64,000 bases of DNA from Tomocerus qinae (taxonomy: Eukaryota > Arthropoda > Collembola > Entomobryomorpha > Tomoceridae): NCBI GenBank assembly GCA_020055645.1, contig CM034549.1, forward strand, positions 3,100,001 through 3,164,000, given 5' to 3'. The notes under the pieces are model-generated. The model had not been told where the DNA came from, made no database searches, and saw only the letters and a program-made list of their open reading frames with translations. The stretch's first letter is position 1, and the number at the start of each line of letters is the position of its first letter. The position numbers were made by a program, and so were the translations under genes. Below, piece after piece: positions 9,915 to 63,678 of this stretch.

Positions 9915-10447
9915 CTACAGGGTTAGTCATTTAAGAGAGTACACTATGGGATTTTTACAAGTATTTTAATTTCATTTTTACAAATTCTTTACGTTACTAC
10001 CTCCTCTATTCGAATTTCCCATTGTAAGTCGAACATTAAAGAGTTGAATCGGGGTAATCCTTGCAACCTCGGCTACAATTCTTGCGTTCAGTTCAGCTGT
10101 TTAGAGGTCTGGTTTCGTAAATGCGTGACTTAAAAGGGCCCAAAAGAAAAAATGTCAAGTCAATTGTCAAAAATTAAAATCTTAATCTATCATCAGGCCT
10201 GCCCAATGACTTCCTTTGGGGCCACCTTTAGTCACGCATTGACAAAACCAGACCTCAAGACATTAGTGAACTGAGCGCAAGAATTAATTGTAACCGAGGT
10301 TGCAAGGGTTACCCCGATGCAACTCTTTAATGTTCGACTTACAATGGGAAATCCGAATAGAGGATGGTAACATAGAGAATTTGTAAAATTTATGAAATTA
10401 AAATACATGTAAAAATCCCATACTGTCTTAAATGACTAACTCTGTAG
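9915..10447. mobile_element. Foldback-type MITE, 533 bases
   Basis: Both halves are long imperfect inverted copies. The left end CTACAGGGTTAGTCATTTAA is matched by TTAAATGACTAACTCTGTAG at the right. The similarity runs inward for more than 200 bases, including the block around 10010-10130 and its reverse complement around 10215-10370. There is no coding capacity. Confidence 0.8.
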
Positions 10448-10946: not shown

Positions 10947-11795
10947 GGCTGAATTTAGGCAGCGGTACTTTGTTGCCACTGTCCCCGCTGTCGCCGCTGT
11001 TGCCGCTGGGAGGTTTGGGGGGTTAGCGGCAACAACATAATAGCGGAGACAGTGGCAACAGCGGCAACAGTGGCGACACGGTACAACCACTAGCGGCGAC
11101 ACGCAAAATCCACTAGCGGCAACAGCGGCGACACAGCTAAAACCACTAGCGACCTGACCAGCGGCAACAGAGACACATTGGCTGAATTTAGGCAGCGGGA
11201 TCTCGTTGCTTCAATTGCCCCCGTTGCCCCAAGTTAAGCCAATTAACCTATCGTCTTTTCCATTTGCTTCCCGTCACTATTTTTGCATCATTTTTGACCT
11301 AACCTAATTAAAAATAAATATGTTCCATTTTTGTTATGCATTAACAATAAAACAGTTTATTTTTTATTAGGTTAGGTCAAAAAAGATGCAAAAATAGTGA
11401 CGGGAAGCAACATATTAAAGTAATAGGTAAAGTGACTAAGCATGGGGCAACGGGGGCAATTGAGGCAACGAGATCCCGGTGCCTAAATTCAGCCGACACA
11501 TTAATATAGAGCAGCAGTGCACTGGCTTATATATTAGGTTTAGCGGCAACAGAGGAAATCAGATTAATGTGTCCCTGTTGCCACTAGTGGTTTTAGCTGT
11601 GTCGCCGCTGTTGCCGCTAGTGGATTTTGCGTGTCGCCGCTGTTGCCACCTGTGGTTTTTGTGTGTCGCCACTGTTGCCGCTGTTGCCACTGTTTCCGCT
11701 TTTATGCTGTTGCCGCTGACCCCCCTTACCCCCTAGCGGCAACAGCGGCGACAGCGGGGACAGTGGCAACAAAGTACCGCTGCCTAAATTCAGCC
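10947..11795. mobile_element. Inverted-repeat element B, inserted in A, 8-base target duplication
   Basis: The terminal repeats start GGCTGAATTTAGGCAGCGG. The arms continue as GC-rich runs of GCGGCAACAGCGGCGACAG type and their complement. GCAAACGG flanks the element on both sides (10939-10946 and 11796-11803). An 8-base duplication is typical of hAT-like and some other DNA transposons; the superfamily is not assigned. The arms are themselves internally repetitive. Apparent ORFs here are low-complexity shadows. Confidence 0.85.
11180..11494. mobile_element. Inverted-repeat element C, inserted in B, 8-base target duplication
   Basis: A 315-base relative of element B with the same outer terminal sequence (GGCTGAATTTAGGCAGCGG). 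It is flanked by GACACATT at 11172-11179 and 11495-11502. Its arms pair CTCGTTGCTTCAATTGCCCC with the complement near 11443-11473. Further in, CCCGTCACTATTTTTGCATC pairs with a copy near 11380-11405. It sits in the middle of B, so the family was active after B inserted. Confidence 0.85.
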
Positions 11796-11941
11796 GCAAA
11801 CGGTGCGTGAAAGTTAGAGTCCGAAGCCACCTCTATATCTCGGAATATTTATACATGACCCCCCAATGTTTCATCGGATCTTTATCGGATATGACCTAGA
11901 GGTCACGTTTCCAACCTCCCCACCCCAACCCCAACCCCACC

Positions 11942-11963
11942 CCCTAACCTAACCTAACCTAAA
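11942..11963. repeat. Short CCTAA run, telomere-like
   Basis: Four consecutive CCTAA units (TTAGG on the other strand, the common arthropod telomere motif). They lie inside element A next to a C-rich stretch of CCCCAACC units. The run is too short to call an interstitial telomere. Confidence 0.5.
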
Positions 11964-12320
11964 ATAAATAAACATAATGACCGATTTGAGGTCCAAAACC
12001 GGTGGAATGTCATTTTCCCCATACCCCAGTCGGGGGTGGGGAGGGTGTAAACGTGACCTTCAGGTAATTTCCGATAAAGATCCGATGAAACATTCAAACA
12101 TTGGGGGGTCATGTCTAAATATTCCGAGATATAGAGGTGGCTTCGGACTCTAACTTTCACGCACCGTTTGCTGCATTCCAACCGTAACCAAATAATATTT
12201 TGTGTTATTACATTACATCCTTCCCTACCCTTGATCTACGATCAACGATCGATAAAAGAAGAGGTCAATCAATCAAGCACCAATCCCTTTCGACATTGAA
12301 ATACCCATGACCCAACACCC

Positions 12321-12359: not shown

Positions 12360-13192
12360 GGAATTACCCATAAATAAATTGATAATAAATCCAATTAATA
12401 GGTCATAAGTCCCCAGGTGTGTCAGGAGACAGGTTTAAATTTAAACCCTAGCTACCGTAGCTAGTTTTGTTGTTGTGGAAAAAGACCATTTTTAATTTAA
12501 GGTTGGCAGTTGTCGAAGCAAACGGATCACTGATTATTTTACTTACAGCTGATAAAGGTATTCATCAACTTATCGACAACAAACAACAAACGAAATGGAT
12601 AATAATATTGGGTATGTACATGTCATAAAAGTTGAAACTGGTAAGTTCGAACCCCGACACCCGATAAACGATAAAGATACGATAAATGATAAACAAATTT
12701 TTCACTGAGCACAGAAATAGGAATAGTTAAGTTGTAAGAATAAATTGCAAAGAAAACCGACGGGAGTTGTAAAAAAACAATGACTAAAACCTGGAATTCG
12801 AAGTCAGAGATAGAGGTCACGGAGCCAGAGCCACCGATTTTCTCAGGATGTGATCAGTCAACAGAATAATAACAATATATTATAGCTTATTGCAATCCAA
12901 TACTTTGTTGATGCTTACAGCCAACAGTGAAAAAAATATAGTAGAAATAGTAGTCAGTAGAAGAAATTTTATTTTATTCCAACCAAAAAAAATATTGACC
13001 AACTTTTAACCAACAACAAAGCTTGCTGATGTTATTTCTCGTTCTCGTTAGTAATGAAATGAATGAAATCGACTAATACCTCTAAACTCTCACATGTATA
13101 TGGATGGAATGAATGAAGCTCGAGCGAACTAAAATCAGAAAACAATCACGTAACGTAAACGTAACGGCTAAACGAACGAATACGAAGAATTA

Positions 13193-13344
13193 ATGTTTTT
13201 AATAATCTACCCCACAGCAGTATACCCGACGTCCACCACACGTAACGTGCTTTTGTCGGGTGCTTTCCGAAGTTACTTGACAAAGGTACCTTGATTATAG
13301 TGGACTTCGGGTAAACTGCTTTGGGGTACATAATTAAAAACATA
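13193..13344. mobile_element. MITE family M1, copy 1
   Basis: Terminal inverted repeats around ATAATCTACCCCACAGCAG and CTGCTTTGGGGTACATAAT, followed inward by an ACCCGACGTCCACCACACGT-type block. It is the same family as 25463-25615 and 25765-25921. It is flanked by TTAA or TAAT-like bases, consistent with a TTAA-type target. There is no coding content. Confidence 0.78.
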
Positions 13345-14255
13345 ATTCAATCTATCGTCTCGTCTCCTTGTACTGGTGTAGTAGAGTGTAGTACTAGTAC
13401 TCGACTCCTACTCCTACTCTACCACTGTTTCCTGGTTGCAGTTGTGGTGCCTTAATGACTTTTTCCGATACCCAAAGCGAACGTACCCAACAACACGACC
13501 CGAGGCACCCGAAGATGCTACCCGCTCTGCTTTCACTTCCCACACCTGACGCCCCAAGTCAACTAAGTCGCCATAATATGACGTTGTCAGGAGGAACAGG
13601 GTCACACCCCCTCCCAAATTCTGGAAAAAATGATACTGTTTTTCAAATGCTACAATACAATGCATGGAAATATTTTTTTCCAGTTTCCAAATTAGCAATT
13701 TTTAGCAACCCGCGGCAGATCCCCATAGTAAAAGTCAAAAATTTCATTTTTCTGCCCGTGACGTTACTTGCAGTACCGTTTAACACGTGTTTTGATAGTC
13801 ATGACGTGACTTAGTTTGCAGTACTTCTATTGATTTTCATAGCCATGGAATTTTTATCAAAATTTGATTATTTGCCTTTGCTTCTGTATTCTAGGTTCTT
13901 TGAATTTTTAGTGTGTATTTGGAACTAATCATTCGGGCATTTTCAGTGTCCTCAAAACAAAGTCAAAATATCTATGACAACGAATTTGCATGGACCGTGA
14001 GTTCCGTCCCAGCGTCCCATTAGATTACAAGACATGTTGACATTGACATCAGCTCACGTCATTTTTGAAATACATGTAAATGTAAAAGTATAGGGACCTA
14101 CTGGAGACCCGAAAGCCGGATACTGCAGACCCGAAAACCGAATGCATCCCTAAAAGTATACACTTTTGTCCGAACCTTTTTCCTTATAATATACTTCTAT
14201 TATCCTTGTAATACTATATTATCAGAATAATTATCACTATCAGCCAAGTTATTAA

Positions 14256-14340
14256 GGTTTTCAATAATGTACCCCAACGCATACCTTCATGTGCTAAATT
14301 TAGTACATGGAGTGATGCGTTCGGGTACATTATTGGAAAC
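14256..14340. mobile_element. MITE family M1, short relative
   Basis: Shares the outer AATGTACCCCAACGCA / TGCGTTCGGGTACATTATT ends with family M1 but has a different 50-base interior. ATTAA stands on both sides (14251-14255 and 14341-14345), suggesting a target duplication. Confidence 0.72.
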
Positions 14341-14848
14341 ATTAAATTGTTGTCCCAGTTGAACAACTAAGTAAAGGGCAGGACAGGATCCATTATCGTC
14401 ATGTAAACAGTAAAATTGTTGACTTTTGTTGAGGTCAGAGCGGTCACCCGTAAGGCCTATGCTAAAGTGAAAACAACATAATATGTGAGGCTGTCACACC
14501 GTCCTGCTGAGAAAGTCATTTTCGATATCATCACTAGGCTAGTCGATAGAAGCGGCATGATATATTTTATGTAACAATTTATAGGAAACGCAATTGAACT
14601 TTTTAATGCTCATTTTCTACTTTGACTATCAAAATGAAGACAATGTGAGCGCGCGGTATCTCAACAACAAATGGACCGATTAACCCGAAAATCAATAGTG
14701 ATCGTCAGTGGTCCATAGGCATCGTTTCTGACATGTTTGGTTGTATTGAGATACCTTTTTGGTTCTTAACCAACGCTTTAAAGGCGTTGGCGTTACCTAA
14801 AAGTAGTATAATATATGGCATCATTAATTCACCATTGTAGGTACGTAA

Positions 14849-18504: not shown

Positions 18505-18810
18505 GAAATCGAAGAAAAGAGGAATTTTTGCCTTAAAACCCAAACTTTTTTCATCTTTTGACTCATAATTTGTCGGGCCCTCCAAAACTTTTTTCTAGCT
18601 GCGACCCTGGCGTAGTTGTCACATAAATTATCCATATAATTTGAAGCTTGGGTCTCTTGTGTTTTGCGTTGAGACTTGTTGGGACGTTTGATTTCATTGA
18701 GATTTATAAAACCGCCATCATCATCGTCTTATTACAAAACTGCAAAACCTTTTGCTGGTCATGGTAACAACAACAACGCAATTTTTATTGCCTCCGCAAT
18801 GGACCAATTG

Positions 18811-18994
18811 GCTATTCAGTCAGCGCCCCTTCAGCGATACACCACGACATTAAAAAGATAGACCTGTAGCCGACTTTCGGCCGACCGCCTAATGGTTTAT
18901 GGATACTGCGGCGGACCGAAACTCGGCTGTTGTGTCTATCTTTTTAATGTCGTGGTGTCTCGCTGAAAGGGCGCTGATTGAATAGGGCCCGTGT
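18811..18994. mobile_element. Foldback MITE next to the long palindrome
   Basis: CAGTCAGCGCCCCTTCAGCG through CATTAAAAAGATAGAC at the left is mirrored by GTCTATCTTTTTAATG through CTGAAAGGGCGCTGATTG at the right (53-base arms). The inner GCCGACTTTCGG / CCGAAACTCGGC pair leaves a loop of about 20 bases. Almost the whole element is one hairpin. Confidence 0.82.
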
Positions 18995-19001
18995 ATTCGT
19001 T

Positions 19002-21118
19002 ATCACCGAAAGTGTCACCGACCCCCTCCGATTACGACCAAAATCGCTGAGCATATGTCTAAAATAGAGTAATTAACGAAATGGACCTTCAAAATTTTTT
19101 TAAAAATAAGAGGGGGCGTGGGGGGTAAGGGGAAGCTTTTCCATTGGGAAGAAAGATTGTGACCAAACGGTAAGTCATAAAATTCTTTAGTTTTTTTCTA
19201 AAATAGCATAAATAGGTGCTTCATCCTGGCAAGGTATAAATTTTATTCAATTCGAATATTTTGGCGCGAAAAAAAATCGGTGAACCTGAAATTAGCAATA
19301 ATTCAAACATTGTGGGTTGAAAATGGCACATATCGACTAAATATTGAATATAAAAGATGCTAGATCATCTTAAATCTCCTTTCTAAGCAAGAACAAGGTT
19401 ACATGTCCAAAATTTATTAAACCCTGTCCGGGGAAGCGGGGGCAATATAAGTTTGGATATTTAATTTCTCAAAACTTATTACGCCTAGAGACTTTAAACC
19501 ACCGCCAAACAACTCAGCATTATGTAATGCATCATGGCAAGGTGGTGTATTGTGTGTCACCCACCCCCTGAGGGGGGTGTAGGTGAGGCTTAAGTTTGGA
19601 AACCCAATATCTCCAAAACTATTTGACTTACGGACTTGAAACTACCGCCAATCAACTCAGCATCATGTAATGCATCATGGCATGGTAGTATATTGTGTGT
19701 TTCCTAACCCCCTTGTGGGGGTGTAGGGGAGGCTTAAGTTTGGAAACCCAATATCTCCAAAACTATTCGACGTACGGACTTGAAACTACCGCCAATCAAC
19801 TCAGCATCATGTAATGCATCATGGCATGGTAGTATATTGTGTGTTTCCTCACCCCCTTGTGGGGGTGTAAGGGAGGCTTAAGTTTGGAAACCCAATATAT
19901 CCAAAACTAATCAACGTAGGGACTTAAAACTACCGCCAATCAACTCAACATCATGTAATGCATCGTGGCATGGTAGCATATTGTGTGTCACCACACCCAC
20001 TGAGGGCTACCCTGCTACCATGTCATGATGCATTACATGATGCTGAGTTGATGGACGGTAGTTTCAAGTCCGTACGTTGAGTAGTTTTGGAGATATTGGG
20101 TTCCCCTACACCCCCCTCAGGGGGTGTGGTGACACACAATATACTACCATGCCATGATGCATTACATGATGCTGAGTGGATTGGCGGTAGCTTCACGTCC
20201 GTACGTTGAGTAGTTTTGGAGATATTGGCTTTCCAAACTTAAGCCTCTCCTATACCCCCCTCAGGGGGTGGAGTGATACACAATATACCACCATGCCATG
20301 ATGCATTACATGATGCTGAGTTGATTGGCGGTAGTTTCAAGTCCGTACGTCGAATAGTTTTGGAGATATTGGGTTTCCAAACTTAAGCCTCCCCTACACC
20401 CCCACAAGGGGGTTAGGAAACACACAATATACTACCATGCCATGATGCATTACATGATGCTGAGTTGATTGGCGGTAGTTTCAAGTCCGTAAGTCAAATA
20501 GTTTTGGAGATATTGGGTTTCCAAACTTAAGCCTCACCTACACCCCCCTCAGGGGGTGGGTGACACACAATACACCACCTTGCCATGATGCATTACATAA
20601 TGCTGAGTTGTTTGGCGGTGGTTTAAAGTCTCTAGGCGTAATAAGTTTTGAGAAATTAAATATCCAAACTTATATCGCCCCCGCTTCCCCGGACAGGGGT
20701 TAATAAATTTTGGACATGTAACCTTGTTCTTGCTTAGAAAGGAGATTTAAGATGATCTAGCATCTTTTATATTCAATATTTAGTCGATATGTGCCATTTT
20801 CAACCCACAATGTTTGAATTATTGCTAATTTCAGGTTCACCGGTTTTTTTTCGCGCCAAAATATTCGAATTGAATAAAATTTATACCTTGCCAGGATGAA
20901 GCACCTATCTATGCTATTTTAGAAAAAAACTAAAGAATTTTATGACTTACCGTTTGGTCACAATCTTTCTTCCCAATGGAAAAGCTTCCCCTTACCCCCC
21001 ACGCCCCCTCTTATTTTTAAAAAAATTTTGAAGGTCCATTTCGTTAATTACTCTATTTTAGACATATGCTCAGCGATTTTGGTCGTAATCGGAGGGGGTC
21101 GGTGACACTTTCGGTGAA
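19002..21118. mobile_element. 2.1-kb near-perfect palindrome with internal 145-base tandem units
   Basis: The left arm from 19002 (TCACCGAAAGTGTCACCGAC) and the right arm ending near 21118 (CGGTGACACTTTCGGTGA) are inverted copies about 1 kb each, meeting near 19980-20015. Each arm holds about four or five tandem units of about 145 bases, marked by CATCATGTAATGCATCATGG and AGTTTGGAAACCCAATAT. There is no ORF. The whole reads as a foldback element. A 16-base inverted pair, GGACCAATTGGCTATT at 18801 and its complement at about 21140-21157, encloses this palindrome together with the hairpin at 18811-18994. Confidence 0.9.
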
Positions 21119-21503
21119 AATGGAAGTAGGAGCTCAATAGCCAATTGGTCCAATTGGCACTTGTTCACTTCACTTGTACGTTCCAGTCAGTTTAGTCGTT
21201 TGATTGTATAGTATAGTGACTAGTGGCTAGAACTAGAAGCTTCTTCGCTACTAGGGTTGTGTCTGGTCTGGTCCATTTTTTTGACCCCTGGTCCCCAAAA
21301 ACTTGCGCGCCGCTCCGTCCCCTTCAGTCATCAGTAGCTAATAGAGGTTTCTCACAATTCGATGCAGTATAGGTAATCTATTTTATATAACATCATTATC
21401 TTAATATTAGGTTATAAGTTGTAGGTATATATTTAAATATTATTGGTTATTTATTATTGTTATTTATTAATAAATATCAATTATTTTTACTCCTTAGTTG
21501 ATA

Positions 21504-22197
21504 ATGGACTGCAACAGTGTGGGTAATAGCGCTGTTACGACCACGACTCTTTGTGTCAGAAAAGAAGATGTTAAAAATGTTAATCCTACCGTGGAACCGA
21601 GTACTTCCCTTGCTCTCGTTGCTAATAATAATACAGATATCGTTTCACCAGATGAGGAGGCTGTTTGTGCCATTAACTGGCACCCTGGTATTCCAGAAAA
21701 CCATGAAGAAGCGTCCAAATGTCCAAGTTGCGGTTTAGGCTTGCTTAGATGGTATTACATAAGTGAAGAAAATTCGCTACAAATGTGTAATAACGTTTTG
21801 GTAAGTTTTCTTTCATAATATTCTAAATGACATTGAGTAGTTAGTAATTTATTAAATAATATAGTTTATAGGTACTCGTAGAGTATATATTATGAGCATG
21901 ATAGGCTTGGTTTGGTTTGGTTGCTACTGATGCCCTAACTTTTATTTATTGTTTATTGTGCTGTAGTGCAACTATCCTTTTGGGTGCGATCAAATAAAAT
22001 TAAGGCCTAACTCAACATATGAATTGCAACTGGATTCGAATGTCACTACTGTGTATGAGGCCGGGGAACATTATTATTATTCACGATCTTCATCAGTTGC
22101 CGAAAATGAAAGGCCTCTAAGTCCAACTGAGTTACGTGATGAAATGGAATCACTTATCGCTAAATACATTGGAAATGAAGCGGACTCGACAGACTAA
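21504..22197 (+). CDS. Small zinc-motif protein resembling the N-terminus of USPL1
   Basis: Exons 21504-21800 and 21967-22197, phase 0 junction, 175 residues. A motif KCPSCGLGLLRWYYISEENS followed by MCNNVLCNYPFGC places C73, C76, C95 and C100 as a likely zinc site. The spacing and the LCxxxxCxYPxG ending match what I recall of the N-terminal motif of USPL1, a SUMO-linked isopeptidase. The catalytic peptidase domain of that family is absent. The C-terminal third is acidic and probably helical (SPTELRDEMESLIAKYIGN). The start is the first ATG; an acceptor-like TCCTTAG lies just upstream, so a 5' untranslated exon is possible. AATAAA at 22329-22334 is a likely poly(A) signal. The function may be SUMO or Cajal-body related, by inference only. 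Confidence 0.75.
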
Positions 22198-24006: not shown

Positions 24007-25462
24007 TCAGTTCAGGCCAGGCAAACAGCAAAGGGGTCAGACGTCAAACGCCAAGGATAAAGTATAAATTAGGCAAAATTGACGTCGTTAAGCTGAAATT
24101 AACCTGGTTCACTCATCTAGTCATCTCAATCTTCATGTACCCACTTTCCCACTATATACTCTCAATTTTTCATCTTAGTCAGCAGTTTTACATTCCAATT
24201 TCCATCATAAACTATTATTGTTATATAAGATTTATATTAAAGTCATGATAAGTAAATAAAAATTAGAAATGTTTCCTAATAATGTTCAAATTTTGGTGCC
24301 CAATCTATCGCGCAAGAGCATGAAAGTAGCCAAGTACAGAGTACAGACTACAACTACAAGACAGTACATACATTCATACATGCATTTTTTAATAGCTGAC
24401 TACATGCGACTCTGAGAGTATAAAGGTAAAGTAGCGCAGGGGCAAGGTATTAGATCACAGCTGTACAAAGCTGTGATAGAAATATAACCTTCTGGCATAG
24501 CGGGTAGCCGCCGTTGTTGAGCGAGAGAAAAGGAATATCCTTCATGGTTTTACAGCCTCAAAGCATGAATGACTTCTGCAACAAACATAATAATAAAATT
24601 TTTAAACATGTTAATAATTTTAAAAAATGGACTTAAATGTTTGTAATGTCGAAACGACCAACAGTAAAAGTTGGAATTTTAATTTTTGATTGTAATATTT
24701 AGTTCTCGTTTGTATTCAGCAATGAGTTGAAATACGAATAATAGTTGAAGTCGCATCTCCTAATCTAGCACAATACATTGTCATCAAAAGCAAACCATCT
24801 CAAAATTCTCAATGGTTTGATTACTGAAAATGGAACACGCGAATACGTTTTTCCCTAATAAAAAATCGTACCAATTATTTTTCCAATGCAAAAGTCAGGC
24901 AAAAAATTATGAATTAAAATTACACCTAAAAGGGACGTTACGTATAGCTTTAGCGTATTTCGTCGTAGAAAGTCGTGTAATAGCTCATTCAAAGTCGGAA
25001 AGGTTCATTAACACAATTAAATGGTTTGCACACACCCCCTGACCGGGAGAGTTGAGAGTGGGTAAAAACTAAAAATCGATGTAATCTCCGGCCGAGATTT
25101 TCCTCTACTTTTTTACATCCATTTGAACATGGTTATGGGAATGACCAATCTGTCTGTCCGTCTGTCTGTAAGCACGATAGCTTTAAAACTTGAAATAATC
25201 TGTTGAAACTTCCTGTAAGTATTTTAGGGGTAAAAGTGAAGTCGAATTTTAAAATGGGCAACATCGGAGACACACCCTCTGCATTTGGGCGTAGTTGAAA
25301 AATTTGTCGTAACTATATAGGTCTCCACAGGTCAAGTCAGCCAGGGTAACACTCTTGGGGCAAGTGTCTCCCAAAATGTTATAATCTGATGTCGCAAAAC
25401 ATGACTACCTCCCTTCGCTACTTTTTTACATGCATTGACATGGTTTATTTTTATGCGAATTA

Positions 25463-25615
25463 AAGTTTTCGATAATGTACCCCAAAGCAGTTTACCCGAA
25501 GTCCAACACACGTAATGTGCCTACGTCGGGTGCCTTCCAAAGTTACGCGACATAGGCAAATTGCGTGTGGTGGACTTCGGGTAAACTGGTTTTGGGTACA
25601 TAATCGATAACATTA
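25463..25615. mobile_element. MITE family M1, copy 2
   Basis: Outer repeats TTTTCGATAATGTACCCC and GGGTACATAATCGATAAC. Inner arms carry ACCCGAAGTCCAACACACGT and its complement. TTAA flanks both ends (25460-25463 and 25613-25616). About 150 bases. Confidence 0.82.
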
Positions 25616-25764
25616 AGGGGGCGCACCTTTCCGCCGAGATATCTAGCGGAATTTGGCATGAACTCGATGTATTTACATTGAGTTGAGTACAAAAACATTC
25701 AATTTTTACTTTTTTAGGAAATCAAAGAAAACTCAAAAGCGCTTTTCGTTCACCAGGTTTTCAC

Positions 25765-25921
25765 CATGTTTTCGATAATGTACCCCAAAGCAGTTCACCC
25801 AAGGTCCAACACACGTAATTTACCTTTGTCGGGTAACTTTGGATTGGAAGACACCCGACATAGGCACATTACATGTGTTGGACTTCGGGTAAGCTGCTTT
25901 GGGGTACATTATCGAAAACAT
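25765..25921. mobile_element. MITE family M1, copy 3
   Basis: The best-preserved copy: GTTTTCGATAATGTACCCCA and its exact complement form the ends, with nearly complete pairing across 157 bases. TTAA follows the right end. Only 150 bases separate it from copy 2. Confidence 0.85.
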
Positions 25922-26452
25922 TAATACATAAAGACTATATTAAAGACATAACGAATACGAATAAGACAACAGGATAGGGCCCATCATATAATGCTATGTA
26001 TATAAACATTACACTATAATGTTATATATAGATATACCATATAAACATGGTATATATACTATTATAATATGTACTATAATAGTAGTGCATAAATATGATA
26101 TAGATGTTGTTGTACTTTGTGTTTGTATTTATTGTATTGTACTCTGGTACTGTACAGTATGTTCAGCTCATAAAAGTGGCAAGTGTGTTGGATTGGTGGA
26201 TTGAGTTTAAGAAGGTAAGGGGGCAGGTCTTAAAATTCGTATCAGCGAATGATAGGAGCGGCGTCTGTACGGAAGTTCCCCAAAACGTTCACTGAGTTCA
26301 CTCCATCCAGGATTGAGTCTGACAAGCCCCGTTCTTTGGAGGGAAATCTCATTTCATCTATTGATCTATCATGGTGGAGGTGAACAGTCAACTCAACAGT
26401 TAGAAAGTTCAATCGTAAAAATTATTTAGACAGTGTTTAGTGGTTATATAAA

Positions 26453-29400
26453 ATGTTTTACGCACATTTCGTGTTGGCCAAAAAGGGCCCTTTGGCCCGA
26501 ATTTGGCTGGCAGCCCATTGGGACAAAAAGCTGACTAAAGCTCATGTTTTTGAAACTTCTATTGAAAAGTCCGTTGAGGGGATTCTGCATCCTAAGGTAA
26601 GCGTAAGGCGGGAACTTTGATATTGAAGTTTTCCTTGTTTATTTGCCATAAATAAATATTATTTTGCAAATTAAATAATCAATAAAATTACTATTTATTT
26701 ATTATGGATGAATAGTATATAAATGCATGGTTATACTTAATTCGATTAAATTATGATTTAGGTCAAGATGGCTTTAAGGACCAGCGGACATTTACTACTG
26801 GGTGTTGTCAGAATTTATTCTAGGAAAGCTAAATACCTTTTGGCGGATTGTAATGAGGCTTTTGTTAAAATTAAAATGGCTTTCAGACCTGGAATGGTCG
26901 ATTTGCCCGAAGAAAATAGGGAGGCAGCCGTTAATGCTATTACGCTGCCAGAAGTTTTCCATGACTTTGATACAAATATTCCAGAGATAAAGTTAGTTAG
27001 TATTTTGGTATCCATAATTGCAAATTGAAACTCATATGTCGATACTTTTTCTCATGCTACACAATTTTATGAATGTTCCATCAAAACATGCGTATTTTAT
27101 TTTTCATGTTATTATTAGTGATGTGGATATCCAAGCGCAGTTGAGTATGAATCAGTCTCGAGCGGAGGAAATCACAATGAGAGAAGATTACGGTTCTCTG
27201 AATCTTCCTCATCATGATGAAGGATTTGGAGATTTGGAATTTAATGAAGATGCTCCAGAATTAATGCGAGATCCTGCCCCAAGCCATTCAAATCTGTTTG
27301 GAGAGTCAGCCAGTGTTGGCTTCGATGATGGTGTTGTAGCTCGGTCGAGCAAAGAGGGAATGGGGTCTGTTCCAGATGACGGTTTCGGAGCCCCTCTTGG
27401 TCAGGATATGATGGGTGATTATTAATTAATAATTAATATTGATAATCGATTCATGTTCAATTCAATACCAAGTGTTTAATAATATACATAAATCTGCACC
27501 TTTGATGTTTTAGTAGTCAATGAGTCAATCATAAATATTCATTCGTTGTCAACCAATATTATTTAATCTTATTACATATTAAAATGGATTGTTACAGCTG
27601 GAGGGTTATTCGAAGGAGGATTATTTGATGAGCCTTCATTGGGGCCAGATCAACCACCACCTGATATACCAGCAACATCATCTTCTGCTCCAGAGCCAAT
27701 GCATTTGGATTCTGATGACGATTTTGGTGGACCGCCATCCATTGCCAGCTCTGGGGGTCCACCAACTCCTTTACAGCCAGAGGAACCCATGGAACAGAAT
27801 CAAAATAATGAAGATGCTTTTAATCAACTTGGGACAGAAGCTAATGAGCAAAATGACAATTTGGATCAAACGACTCTGTTACACAATGAAGAAGAATCCT
27901 TTGCTTTAGCCCCAATCGAAGCACCGGTGGCTAGAGGTGGGTAGATGACACTGTTTGGTAATAGTTTTTAATTAATCATTAAATACTTATTGACATAATT
28001 ATTTTGGTCGTTTAGGGGTAAGAGGTGGTGGAAAGCGTAAGAGGAAGTTAATCGTAGACGAAGTCAAAAACATTTCCGGAGAAGAGATGAAGGCTCAGCT
28101 ATCAGACACTTCAGATATTGTAACAACCCTTGACTTGGCTCCGCCAACTAAAAGATTAATGCACTGGAAAGAAACAGGCGGTGTTGAGAAATTGTTTGCA
28201 TTACCAGGCCGTCATATTCCCTCTCGAGTAATTGCTCGCAATTACCAAATTCATTTAACATCACGTCCTGCTGAAAATGAAGAATTTGTAATGAACAATG
28301 AAAACGTTGATCCTCTGCCATTTGACGGTCCACCAGCACTTGGACCCCCACACACTCCAGCTCCAGCTCCTTCCCCCAAAGCACCTGCATCCAAACCCAG
28401 GAGGAGTAATGCTGGAAGGAAGCGAAAGGCAACGGAACCACTTGAAGAGTTGAGACAAAATGAGGAGAACGAGGAGCCACCATCACTGCCCGTAGAGGGG
28501 GAAATGCCTCCATCCTTGTCTGTATCAGGGGAAACGGCCCCTCCTCAACTGAATGCTATTAGTGGGTTGGATAATGAATCAGGACCAAGTAATATGACTG
28601 CCGTAGGCCTTGATAGCTTAGTTGATCCCCCGTCCAATGCCTTTTTCCCTCCCCCAACGCCCGGCGCCTCTCTCCAAGCTAACGAATCTGAAGTAGTTGC
28701 CCCTGATACTCCAATGGTTCTTCCTTCTGCCAACGGAACTGCCCACGACGTTGACAACATTAATCTCTCTATGATGGAAAACATGGGATACGACGGACCT
28801 GACCATACAAACCAGCATCTACCTACTCCTGGTAAACAAAAATTTTGATTTAAAAATGTGCTCTTTTTGTGTAAAATGTTCTCTGATTGATATACTTTGT
28901 ATCTGTTTTCACAGCTGAAAATATTGCTGCCGCTCCTCTAGGTTCTGTGTTACCTCAAACACCATGGGGCGGCCACGAAGATTACGATTTCCCTGCTTCT
29001 GTTGGAGCGGTAAAATAATTTTTTTTCATTTTCGATAATTCGATTTTGTAATCTCTCTTATATTTTGGGTGCATTTGTTGTGTTTGTGTGTGTTATTATT
29101 TGAGAGCCTGAATTTGGCTCAGTGGCGTTGGAATGGTACAAATAAATCCAGGCTCTCAACACACACAAGTCACACAAAACAATAATATCTCAGCTCATTC
29201 CACTTCTTTGCTGCTCTTCTCTCTCGAAGCAGCACAGAAGTGGAATCCAACGGAGCCACTTTAAACAAAAATTAGTAAAAGGGTGTACCATAAGTGGGAG
29301 ACTTTAAACTAAAATTAGTAAAAGGGTGTAGCATAAGTGGGAGACTTTAAACTAAAATTCGTAAAAGGGTGTAGCATAAGTGGGAGACTTTAAACTAAAA

Positions 29401-30191
29401 TTCGTAAAAGGGTGTAGCATAAGTGGGAGACTTTAAACTAAAATTCGTAAAAGGGTGTAGCATAAGTGGGAGACTTTAAACTAAAATTCGTAAAAGGGTG
29501 TAGCATAAGTGGGAGACTTTAAACTAAAATTCGTAAAAGGGTGTAGCATAAGTGGGAGACTTTAAACTAAAATTCGTAAAAGGGTGTAGCATAAGTGGGA
29601 GACTTTAAACTAAAATTCGTAAAAGGGTGTAGCATAAGTGGGAGACTTTAAACTAAAATTCGTAAAAATGGGTATAGAGTTAAATTCATAAGTTTAAGGG
29701 TTTGTTATTTAGAAATAAAAAGAAATATATAAAACATTTTTGTAAATAATAAATTTTCGAATATTTTTTAAAATAGTTTTCTTAAATATTTTTATTATTT
29801 TTTTTGAAATTTCAAGCACCCTGTTATTAACCCCGTCCGTAGGACGGGTCACTGTACTAGTATAACAATAAAAACTAATCCCGCATTGATTTAAATTTTT
29901 AATCAGGCTGACGAACAAGCTACTGACGAAACGTACGAACAATACGAAGAGCGAGTGTTGAACAAGCGGGCGGCACAAATGTATCACATAGTCAAATCAA
30001 AATTAGATGTAGAAAGCAGCATAGGGTTTTCTTCGATGTGCACCGTCCGAAACAGCAGAAAACAGGTTGCCCAGAAATTTTACACTCTCTTGGTACTTAA
30101 AAAAGCCCAGGCGGTGGAATTAGTACAAAACTCGTCGTACGACAACATCATGGTTACCAAAGGTCCTAAGTTTTTAACGGCATCTTTGTAG
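26453..30191 (+). CDS. RAD21: Cohesin subunit RAD21 (SCC1)
   Basis: Seven exons: 26453-26596, 26762-26991, 27119-27414, 27598-27936, 28016-28831, 28915-29009 and 29907-30191. All phases agree, giving 734 residues. The N-terminus [20 protein letters not shown] through PEVFHDFD is the SMC3-binding Rad21/Rec8 domain. [12 protein letters not shown] follows at about 136-147. ELMR at 172-175 fits the separase consensus ExxR at the place of the human first cleavage site. [20 protein letters not shown] and [11 protein letters not shown] mark the conserved centre. Exon 7 is the winged-helix domain that closes on SMC1. The linker at about residues 410-600 is Pro-rich and diverged. RAD21 is the kleisin that seals the cohesin ring in sister-chromatid cohesion and loop formation. 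A Helitron occupies most of the last intron. Confidence 0.96.
29052..29860 (+). mobile_element. Non-autonomous Helitron, family 1, in the last RAD21 intron
   Basis: It begins TCTCTCTTATATTTTGGG after an A. It ends with hairpin CCCGTCC-GTA-GGACGGG (29832-29848), eight more bases, then CTAG (29857-29860) before a T. Near the 5' end an inverted pair (GAGAGCCTG...CAGGCTCTC) can form a second stem. A 43-base minisatellite fills the middle. There is no coding sequence. Same orientation as RAD21; the splice sites at 29010 and 29906 are untouched. Confidence 0.88.
29259..29668 (+). repeat. 43-base minisatellite inside the Helitron
   Basis: About 9.5 units of 43 bases (TAAGTGGGAGACTTTAAACT then AAAATTCGTAAAAGGGTGTA and GCA). 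The first two units have TTAGT where the others have TTCGT; the later units are almost identical, so the array expanded recently. Confidence 0.95.
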
Positions 30192-47738: not shown

Positions 47739-48098
47739 GTCTTCTGAGCACTTGAATAAAACTTGATATTTTTATCAGGGTGTCTTCTATTAGGTGTCTT
47801 CAATTCTACAGTAGAGAATGCCGTCAAATTCGTCAATTATTGCTCCAAAAACAATGGGCTCAGGCATGGATATGAACAAGCTATAGTCTGGGGTCGGAGT
47901 CGGAATTTAGCACCTCACTCCATTTTCCCCTCAACAACCTCTTCGCATAAATTGGCACACCAAAGTATGATAATACACCGAATTGATGCCTTTGGTACCT
48001 ACATTGTACAGTTTTATGCTAAGAGGAAGAAGAGGGAGTTTAAAGCCCAGGTGCATGGAAACGAAAATGATTTCTCGACTATCATTTGCCAGTAACTT

Positions 48099-48639
48099 TT
48101 TTTTGGAAATTCCCTAAGGATCTGAGACCACTGGTCCTACACCCATGCAATAATTTTTAAAAAATTTTTCGAAACTTATTCTTCGGTAGTTATGTTGAAA
48201 ATTCCACATTTTGGGTTTTGACTTGAAGATATAAATTCGCAATATAATAATGCACAAAAAAACACACATTTTTCGGTTTCAAACGATGATATCTTCAAGT
48301 CGAAGACCAAGATGTGGAATTTTCAATATAACTACCAAAGTGATTTGAATGTTTCCAGGGCTCCGCCCTCAGGGACAAAGTGACGACATGCTCCAGAAAA
48401 CTGGTTTCCCCCAACCAGTTCTCCGAATCGAAATCGGGGGTAAAGTGGTTGGAAAGAACTGGTTTGGGGAAACCAGTTTTCTGGAGCATGTCGTCACCTT
48501 GCCCCTGAGAGGCGTAGCCATGGGACCAATCAAAGCATCTTGATAACTACTATAGAATAAGTTTCGAAGAATTTTAAAAAAATTATTGCATAAGTTTAGG
48601 ACCAGTGGGCTCAGATCCTTAGGGAATTTCCAAAAAAAA
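48099..48639. mobile_element. Foldback element with a smaller hairpin in its left arm
   Basis: TTTGGAAATTCCCTAAGGAT at the left is matched by its complement ending at 48639. Pairing resumes through CGACATGCTCCAGAAAACTG (48384 onward) and its complement around 48470-48496, with the centre near 48430. Between about 48187 and 48346 the left arm has an extra hairpin (TAGTTATGTTGAAAATTCCA and complement) that the right arm lacks, which looks like an insertion. No coding content. Confidence 0.75.
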
Positions 48640-48871
48640 GTACGAATTTTTCCGATTCCCATTTACCCTCTATGATAATTTTTACTGGTTACCCAGCAAC
48701 ATCCCCATTTGTGGCAAAAACAATCTGAGTCTTTCGAAACATGCACCATTGCCTTAAATTAAAATTAGCTAGTAGCTAAGGTGATTTTCAAAAATTTGAC
48801 TCCGACTCCTGATTCTCTTACCCGCGGCACATCCCTATGGGGAATTAAAAATGAAAAGTGGGTGGGAAAAG

Positions 48872-62300: not shown

Positions 62301-63678
62301 ATGTGGCCACTGTGGGCGGACCCATAGAGGCCTGTGATATTTATTATGCTTAATATATCTTTTATTACTGTTATCAATTATTGATAATTGCCGATACGGA
62401 CACAGTACTAGGAAATGAACAATAATAATATAATCATCATCAAAACATTAATGAACATAATTTAGATACAAACAATTATAATAAAAACATATTTGAAATG
62501 AATAAATAATACCAAATATCACTGAATACAGTCCCAAAGGACTCAAATAACAATAGTATCTAATACATTTTTGTGGAAATTTTTTTAATGGATTTGGAGC
62601 TAAGTCCACCCCCTTTTGAGGTAAGGCCTTCAAAATAATATAGCATCTGTCTCAAAGGTAGGTGAGGTTAACTACTGAGTTTCATTGCGAAATTCGTAAT
62701 GCTTTTGGTGTTTTGGGACCTAATTTGACCTCATATACAGTCAGGGAGTTAGCTCTTTCCCTGGCTCTTTTATAGCCAGATTTGGCTCCAAAAAAGGAGC
62801 TGGTTCTAGCTCCTTAAGCGCTAATATTGGCTCTGTTTTTTGAAACCCACGAAGGAAACTAAAACTACTTTTCCGTCCGAAACTGGACGGTTGGTAGTGA
62901 AGCTACCCGACATTTGACAAAATTAGCAAAGAAAGCATGCATCTATCTACCCACAGTGTTAACCTAATGAGAAAGAGGATTGTTATAATTCTTCATTCTT
63001 TCCGATTTTCGATATACCACCTCCTTTACTCAGGCCACACCCCCCCAATAGTCGAAAAGCAAGGTTGAAACTACTCCGAAACTACTCGACCGATTCGAAT
63101 CATTATTATTGATATAGTGAGAAAATTGTAACTTGAGTCACACAGTACTGGGCCTCTAGTTTTATATAATTATTTTAAATTGCGTTAAGAAAATATTCGT
63201 CATATTGCATAGTTTTCTGCATTTTGTACTACACCATATTTATACTGTCAGCTGCGTACACGATACAGCTTTCGTGTCCGGCCCAATCTCCTTTGTTTAA
63301 TTTTTCTGAGATGTGATCTGAAAGAGTTGGTTGTAGAATGCATTCTATTATAGGAACCAAAAAGTCCATCGGTGAAAAGATAGATTTTGACACGCTCTTT
63401 CCAATGGTGATGGTTAGAATGAAATCGGTCGTTGGCTTTTTTGGCTCTGGAGGTTTTGGTGAAATAATTTGATAGAAGAGCTACTTTCAGCGCCTTAGGA
63501 GCTACAATTTTGTGTAAAAAGAGCCAGTTCTGGCTCCAGAAGCCCATATTAGCGCCATAAGAGCTAGATCCAGCTCCTTTTTTAGGAGCTAAATCTGGCT
63601 ACAAAAGAGCCAGGGAAAGAGCTAACTCCCTGACTGATATATCTACCGCCTCTATGGGTCCGCCCACTTTGAGCAGGA
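62301..63678. mobile_element. Outer inverted-repeat element
   Basis: GTGGGCGGACCCATAGAGGC at 62312-62331 and its exact complement at 63648-63667 form an inverted pair about 1.3 kb apart. The bases just outside remain partly complementary (CCATGTGGCC versus the complement of GAGCAGGACATGG). It appears to host the element at 62738-63636. Confidence 0.65.
62738..63636. mobile_element. Inner terminal-inverted-repeat element, 899 bases
   Basis: The ends start CAGTCAGGGAGTTAGCTCTT. The terminal repeats run about 95 bases, rich in GGCTC/GAGCC units (AGCTCCTTTTTT, CAGATTTGGCT). ATATA-like bases flank both sides and may be the target duplication. An interior 99-codon minus-strand ORF (63547-63248) has no recognised domain and partly overlaps the repeat; I do not call it a gene. 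Confidence 0.75.

Follow-up and report, generated by a model that had tools for sequence, protein, structure and literature searches.

Foldback elements with arms in which tandem units follow a flanking domain have already been described, namely Tetris (PMC4079207) and Galileo F and G (PMC3573991, PMC3688188). As far as the available excerpts of these papers extend, the arms of Tetris consist of an external flanking domain of up to 866 bp and then of tandem repeats of about 220 bp; the element is non-coding, its repeat number differs among alleles, and a transposase-coding partner was not found in the excerpted account (PMC4079207). Galileo belongs to the P superfamily, and some of its subfamilies have long arms with internal tandem repeats (PMC3573991, PMC3688188, in excerpt). 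The sites repeated in its arms bind the THAP domain of the transposase, according to the accessible part of PMC3688188. Furthermore, Tm1 is a Mutator/Phantom foldback element of root-knot nematodes (PMC3169594, in excerpt).

In the present study, we analysed a palindrome in a 64,000-nucleotide stretch of Tomocerus qinae DNA, referred to here as the window. We consider it likely that this palindrome is a non-autonomous, foldback-type DNA transposon, because it has exact inverted ends and the arm anatomy of such elements, and because a second foldback family is present in the window. The initial annotation had likewise proposed a foldback transposon, and this is the best fit to the ends, the arms and the other foldback family. 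Its further suggestion, that the kind may be a new one, is unsupported; as a structural class, the element probably belongs to a known kind. Judged by its sequence, it would work like a foldback element. Its parts are the following.

19003 to 21117, no strand: whole foldback-type palindrome, 2115 bp, outer boundary within about ±3 nt
19003 to 19022, plus strand: left terminal 20-mer TCACCGAAAGTGTCACCGAC, located by pattern search
21098 to 21117, minus strand: 20-mer at the right end, inverting the left one exactly, located by pattern search
19003 to 19447, plus strand: left flanking domain, non-tandem (unit homology by BLASTN begins at 19448)
20673 to 21117, minus strand: right flanking domain, mirror of the left one
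19448 to 20006, plus strand: left array, units L1-L4, spacing 143-144 nt, L4 shortened at the centre
20114 to 20672, minus strand: right array, units R4-R1, mirroring L4-L1
20015 to 20105, minus strand: central partial unit C, no mirror partner, 129 nt to the next unit

An inverted-repeat search, with which self-BLASTN agrees, gave arms at 19000-20006 and 20114-21120, each 1007 nt long, 97% complementary and separated by a gap of 107 nt. Cut back to their common 20-nt ends, the mirrored arms (19003-20006 and 20114-21117) differ at 28 of 1004 nt, and these long terminal inverted repeats make up 2 × 1004 of the 2115 nt. The terminal 20-mer matched twice in the window at up to 3 mismatches, with 0 matches expected by chance, and the two inverted copies are exact. 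Arm similarity ends at matching positions on both sides, within about 3 nt, and extends to 19000 and 21120 across one mismatch. Outside the ends the flanks are unrelated, except for 3 positions of which 2 match. Each arm begins with 445 nt of non-repeated DNA and continues with about four tandem units of 143-144 nt. The ninth unit, a partial one in the centre, has the orientation of the right arm. The initial annotation had counted four or five units per arm; four are mirrored in each arm, and the single partial one is unmirrored. The spacings it gave, about 145 bases and 129 beside the centre, agree with the measured 143-144 nt and 129 nt, the latter separating the central partial unit from its neighbour and falling 15 short of the other spacings. 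The centre, previously placed near 20000, had to be moved, as the mirror centre is 20060 and the unit orientation switches near 20007-20014.

The likeness of the two arms is layered. The best change point was found at 19831, with 4 mismatches in 828 nt outside it and 24 in 176 nt inside it, and 0 of 2000 permutations gave as good a division.

19003 to 19830, plus strand: homogenised left outer arm, 4 mismatches in 828 nt to its mirror 20290-21117
20290 to 21117, minus strand: homogenised right outer arm, mirror of 19003-19830
19831 to 20289, no strand: diverged centre, 459 nt, mirrored parts differing at 24 of 176 sites

The palindrome with mirrored tandem arrays is real, and the earlier description of it as near-perfect holds for the outer 828 nt and fails for the inner 176 nt. 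Among the mirrored pairs, L1/R1 are 98.6% and L2/R2 100% alike, and L3/R3 are 97.9-98.6% alike with gaps and 95.8% without (6 mismatches in 144, all from 19831 on). Neighbouring units compare at 79.7% (L1/L2), 95.1% (L2/L3) and 91.7% (L3/L4) in the left arm, and at 79.1% (R1/R2), 93.7% (R2/R3) and 89.6% (R3/R4) in the right arm. Mirrored units are therefore mostly closer to each other than to neighbours of the same arm, and the innermost pair, L4/R4 at 91.5%, is no more similar than neighbouring units are. These identities, taken together with the change point, indicate that the units already differed prior to the last equalisation of the outer arms, and the drop at 19831 indicates that this event stopped inside the third unit. 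The pattern suggests that the outer arms were recently equalised by copying from arm to arm.

In addition, a 16-nt motif starting at 19012, close to the left end, reappears in the outermost units, in the same orientation as the end in L1 and mirrored in R1.

19012 to 19027, plus strand: terminal motif GTGTCACCGACCCCCT, left end
19554 to 19569, plus strand: internal copy of this motif within L1, matching at 15 of 16 letters
20551 to 20566, minus strand: internal copy of this motif within R1, matching at 15 of 16 letters
21093 to 21108, minus strand: terminal motif, right end

When the terminal 40 nt were compared with the rest of the outer left arm, the best ungapped score was 13, and the maximum in 200 dinucleotide shuffles was 10. 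In the whole window the motif occurs at four places with at most 1 mismatch (the two ends and the two units) and at eight with at most 4, three of them outside the element. It lies 10 and 552 nt from the end of the element, and degenerate forms then follow every 143-144 nt. The 15/16 form is confined to 2 of the 8 mirrored units, which are one mirrored pair; the other six have degenerate forms with an extra base at the same place, so the case for a repeated motif depends on that one pair. A wider similarity between flanking domain and units was considered and rejected, its score being reached by 53 of 300 shuffles in the forward and 228 of 300 in the reverse orientation.

Target-site duplications were sought by shifting both ends together over 8 positions at lengths 2-10. 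None was found for the palindrome: no length of at least 4 had more than half of its letters equal, with at most 3 of 7 equal for a 7-bp duplication of the Galileo type and at most 4 of 9 for a 9-bp duplication of the Tm1 type. Two other elements of the window served as controls. The first, at 10947-11795, is the second foldback, with short tandem repeats in both arms, arms of unequal length and a perfect 8-bp target-site duplication, GCAAACGG. The other is a 315-bp element nested in the middle of it (11180-11494), with the same terminal letters and a perfect 8-bp duplication of its own, GACACATT. Both gave 8 of 8 letters at length 8 in the same test, which shows that the test works and that such elements did transpose in this genome. 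Because no duplication was found at the palindrome, its own mobility is something that we infer. The missing duplication may reflect recombination between copies, a later change of the flanks or an origin without transposition.

Further palindromic structures were seen in the window. By eye, the foldback at 10947-11795 lies within one end of a further palindrome (11793-12174). A palindromic repeat family of about 160 bp occurs at 13187-13348, 25460-25616 and 25766-25921, with a possible relative, judged by eye, at 14252-14345. Two structures of about 540 bp each (9915-10447 and 48095-48641) have no target-site duplication evident by eye. An inverted-repeat pair at 62733-63642, with ends CAGTCAGGGAGTTAGCTC and TA-rich letters alongside, presumably resembles a Tc1-type element.

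By pattern search and BLASTN, no further copy of the element was found within the window. The terminal 20-mer and the unit pattern each had 0 matches in viral contigs, and the end pattern had 0 in prokaryotic genome contigs, collections in which near records may be absent. Since the collections searched are viral or prokaryotic, these zero counts say little about an animal element. The terminal 20-mer was not found mentioned in the open-licence PMC literature.

Among the other readings, we tentatively entertain a chimeric or rearranged foldback, in which ectopic recombination joined two copies of the same family so that each supplied one end; this is a sub-case that overlaps with the transposon reading. 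Such an origin would account for the target-site duplication not found at the element, and chimeric Galileo copies have non-matching flanking 7-mers (PMC3573991, in excerpt). The arms of those chimeras are, however, unusually divergent in the excerpted account (PMC3573991), against 4 mismatches in 828 nt here, although later conversion could mask such a difference.

The surroundings of the element contain one more symmetric feature.

18800 to 18816, plus strand: outer 17-nt inverted repeat, left copy, outside the element
21136 to 21152, minus strand: outer 17-nt inverted repeat, right copy, outside the element

This inverted repeat is exact, and 0 of 956 random region pairs (1000 drawn, 956 kept) reached 17 nt, the longest being 13. 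As a 19-nt pattern it matched twice in viral contigs, about the chance level by an estimate in which the collection size was guessed. A 174-bp palindrome of other sequence lies at 18812-18985, ending 17 nt from the left end of the element. The outer repeat looks as if the symmetry had formerly extended outward, as would fit a local inverted duplication that never transposed, in which template switching during replication gave a second, inverted copy of a block carrying a short tandem array. The lack of a target-site duplication and of a second copy within the window would also fit. We nevertheless regard this origin as quite unlikely, as each end of the symmetric region lies next to a motif repeated within the arms, and the same window holds foldbacks with target-site duplications.

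The initial annotation saw no coding sequence in the palindrome, and our results agree: in all 17 stop-to-stop stretches of at least 45 aa inside the element, no Pfam match was obtained at E≤0.1. A transposase remnant was rejected as a candidate on these 17 of 17 stretches, and no P-type transposase was found in them by Pfam. Across the window, ARAGORN run with the bacterial code predicted no tRNA, and Rfam gave no match at gathering scores. One folded tandem unit (19563-19706, DNA parameters) had a z of -1.11, with 25 of 200 shuffles equally stable. Cruciform extrusion, genetic instability and double-stranded RNA, all suggested earlier for this palindrome, are possible consequences of such a sequence. 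The outer arms could pair as an RNA duplex of 828 bp, near-perfect with 4 mismatches, but a hairpin-RNA locus maintained for small-RNA production is very unlikely, given that no Rfam match was found, that nothing in the sequence analysis indicates transcription or selection, and that the single folded unit was no stabler than its shuffles, a result uninformative on the long duplex. An assembly or library artefact (a fold-back read or chimera) is hardly credible, although amplification and unsplit hairpin-adaptor reads are both known to produce long palindromes. We would expect such an artefact to extend the mirror into the flanks; we would not expect it to leave a central unit unpaired, to end next to a motif that the arms repeat internally, or to show 28 mismatches that cluster towards the centre.

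About 390 bp downstream of the element, an ATG at 21504 opens a reading frame. We read this frame as a gene, a reading that is unproven; the open frame (21501-21815), just downstream of the element, had no Pfam match. Elsewhere in the window, Pfam detected two N-terminal pieces of RAD21 at 26441-27025 and an NKAIN match of 30.4 bits (cut-off 25.9); RAD21 marks the host as a eukaryote, and NKAIN is the match that suggests an animal. A 43-bp tandem array with 9.5 copies and 99% matches (29258-29667) was noted just downstream of the open stretches of the RAD21 region.

With the palindrome taken as a non-autonomous foldback transposon, its history may be pictured as follows. A transposase encoded at another locus would have recognised the terminal motif and mobilised the element in trans. 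By analogy with Galileo, the motif copies in the arrays may be secondary binding sites, clear in the outermost units and degenerate in the rest. The arrays could have expanded through unequal exchange or slippage. Later, one outer arm would have been copied from the other, by gene conversion or by repair of a hairpin-prone break, in a recent event whose tract presumably ends within the third unit, at about 19830 and 20290. It seems rather unlikely to us that the element represents a foldback family from a transposon group still undescribed, with tandem growth multiplying the end-recognition sites inside the arms and copying between arms keeping the sites of the two ends alike as the centre ages; the identity drop at 19831 would, if that were true, represent a copying tract frozen in place. 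Should the family be confirmed, the element would document cleanly how the arms of foldbacks evolve, with unit divergence from before the copying, a tract with a sharp boundary and an array that repeats the end motif; one could then test whether selection favours tandem arms as additional transposase sites. If the family is not confirmed, it would be one more foldback in a repeat-rich genome.

Likened by description, the element appears to have its closest parallel in Tetris of Drosophila virilis, and Galileo F and G and Tm1 seem looser parallels; we assign it to none of these families. The comparisons that follow use the available excerpts of the cited papers. Tm1 is similar in its composite foldback arms, its variable number of tandem units and its groups of copies without a transposase gene (PMC3169594). 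Its units are of 13-15 bp, whereas those here are of 144 bp; its outer 7-mers are asymmetric, and its target-site duplications are mostly of 9 bp, unlike the present element, where no duplication was found (PMC3169594). In Galileo, the arms within one copy are 98-100% identical (PMC3573991, PMC3688188), which we count as a likeness. Its near-end transposase-binding site recurs in the array, lying 63-80, 561-577 and 701-718 bp from the end (PMC3573991, PMC3688188), and the motif here lies at 10 and 552, a likeness of position. The 7-bp target-site duplications of Galileo, and the P-type transposase of its nearly complete copies, were not found here (PMC3573991, PMC3688188). Tetris copies have target-site duplications of 8-10 bp, in contrast to none found here (PMC4079207). 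Tetris also has an inner arm domain and a middle domain, whereas the units here reach the centre, and its flanking domain and units share a similarity of 37 bp at about 80%, whereas here only the 16-nt terminal motif is significant (PMC4079207). In both elements the same order is seen, with a flanking domain (866 bp at most in Tetris and 445 here) followed by tandem units (about 220 and 144 bp, respectively) in non-coding DNA (PMC4079207).
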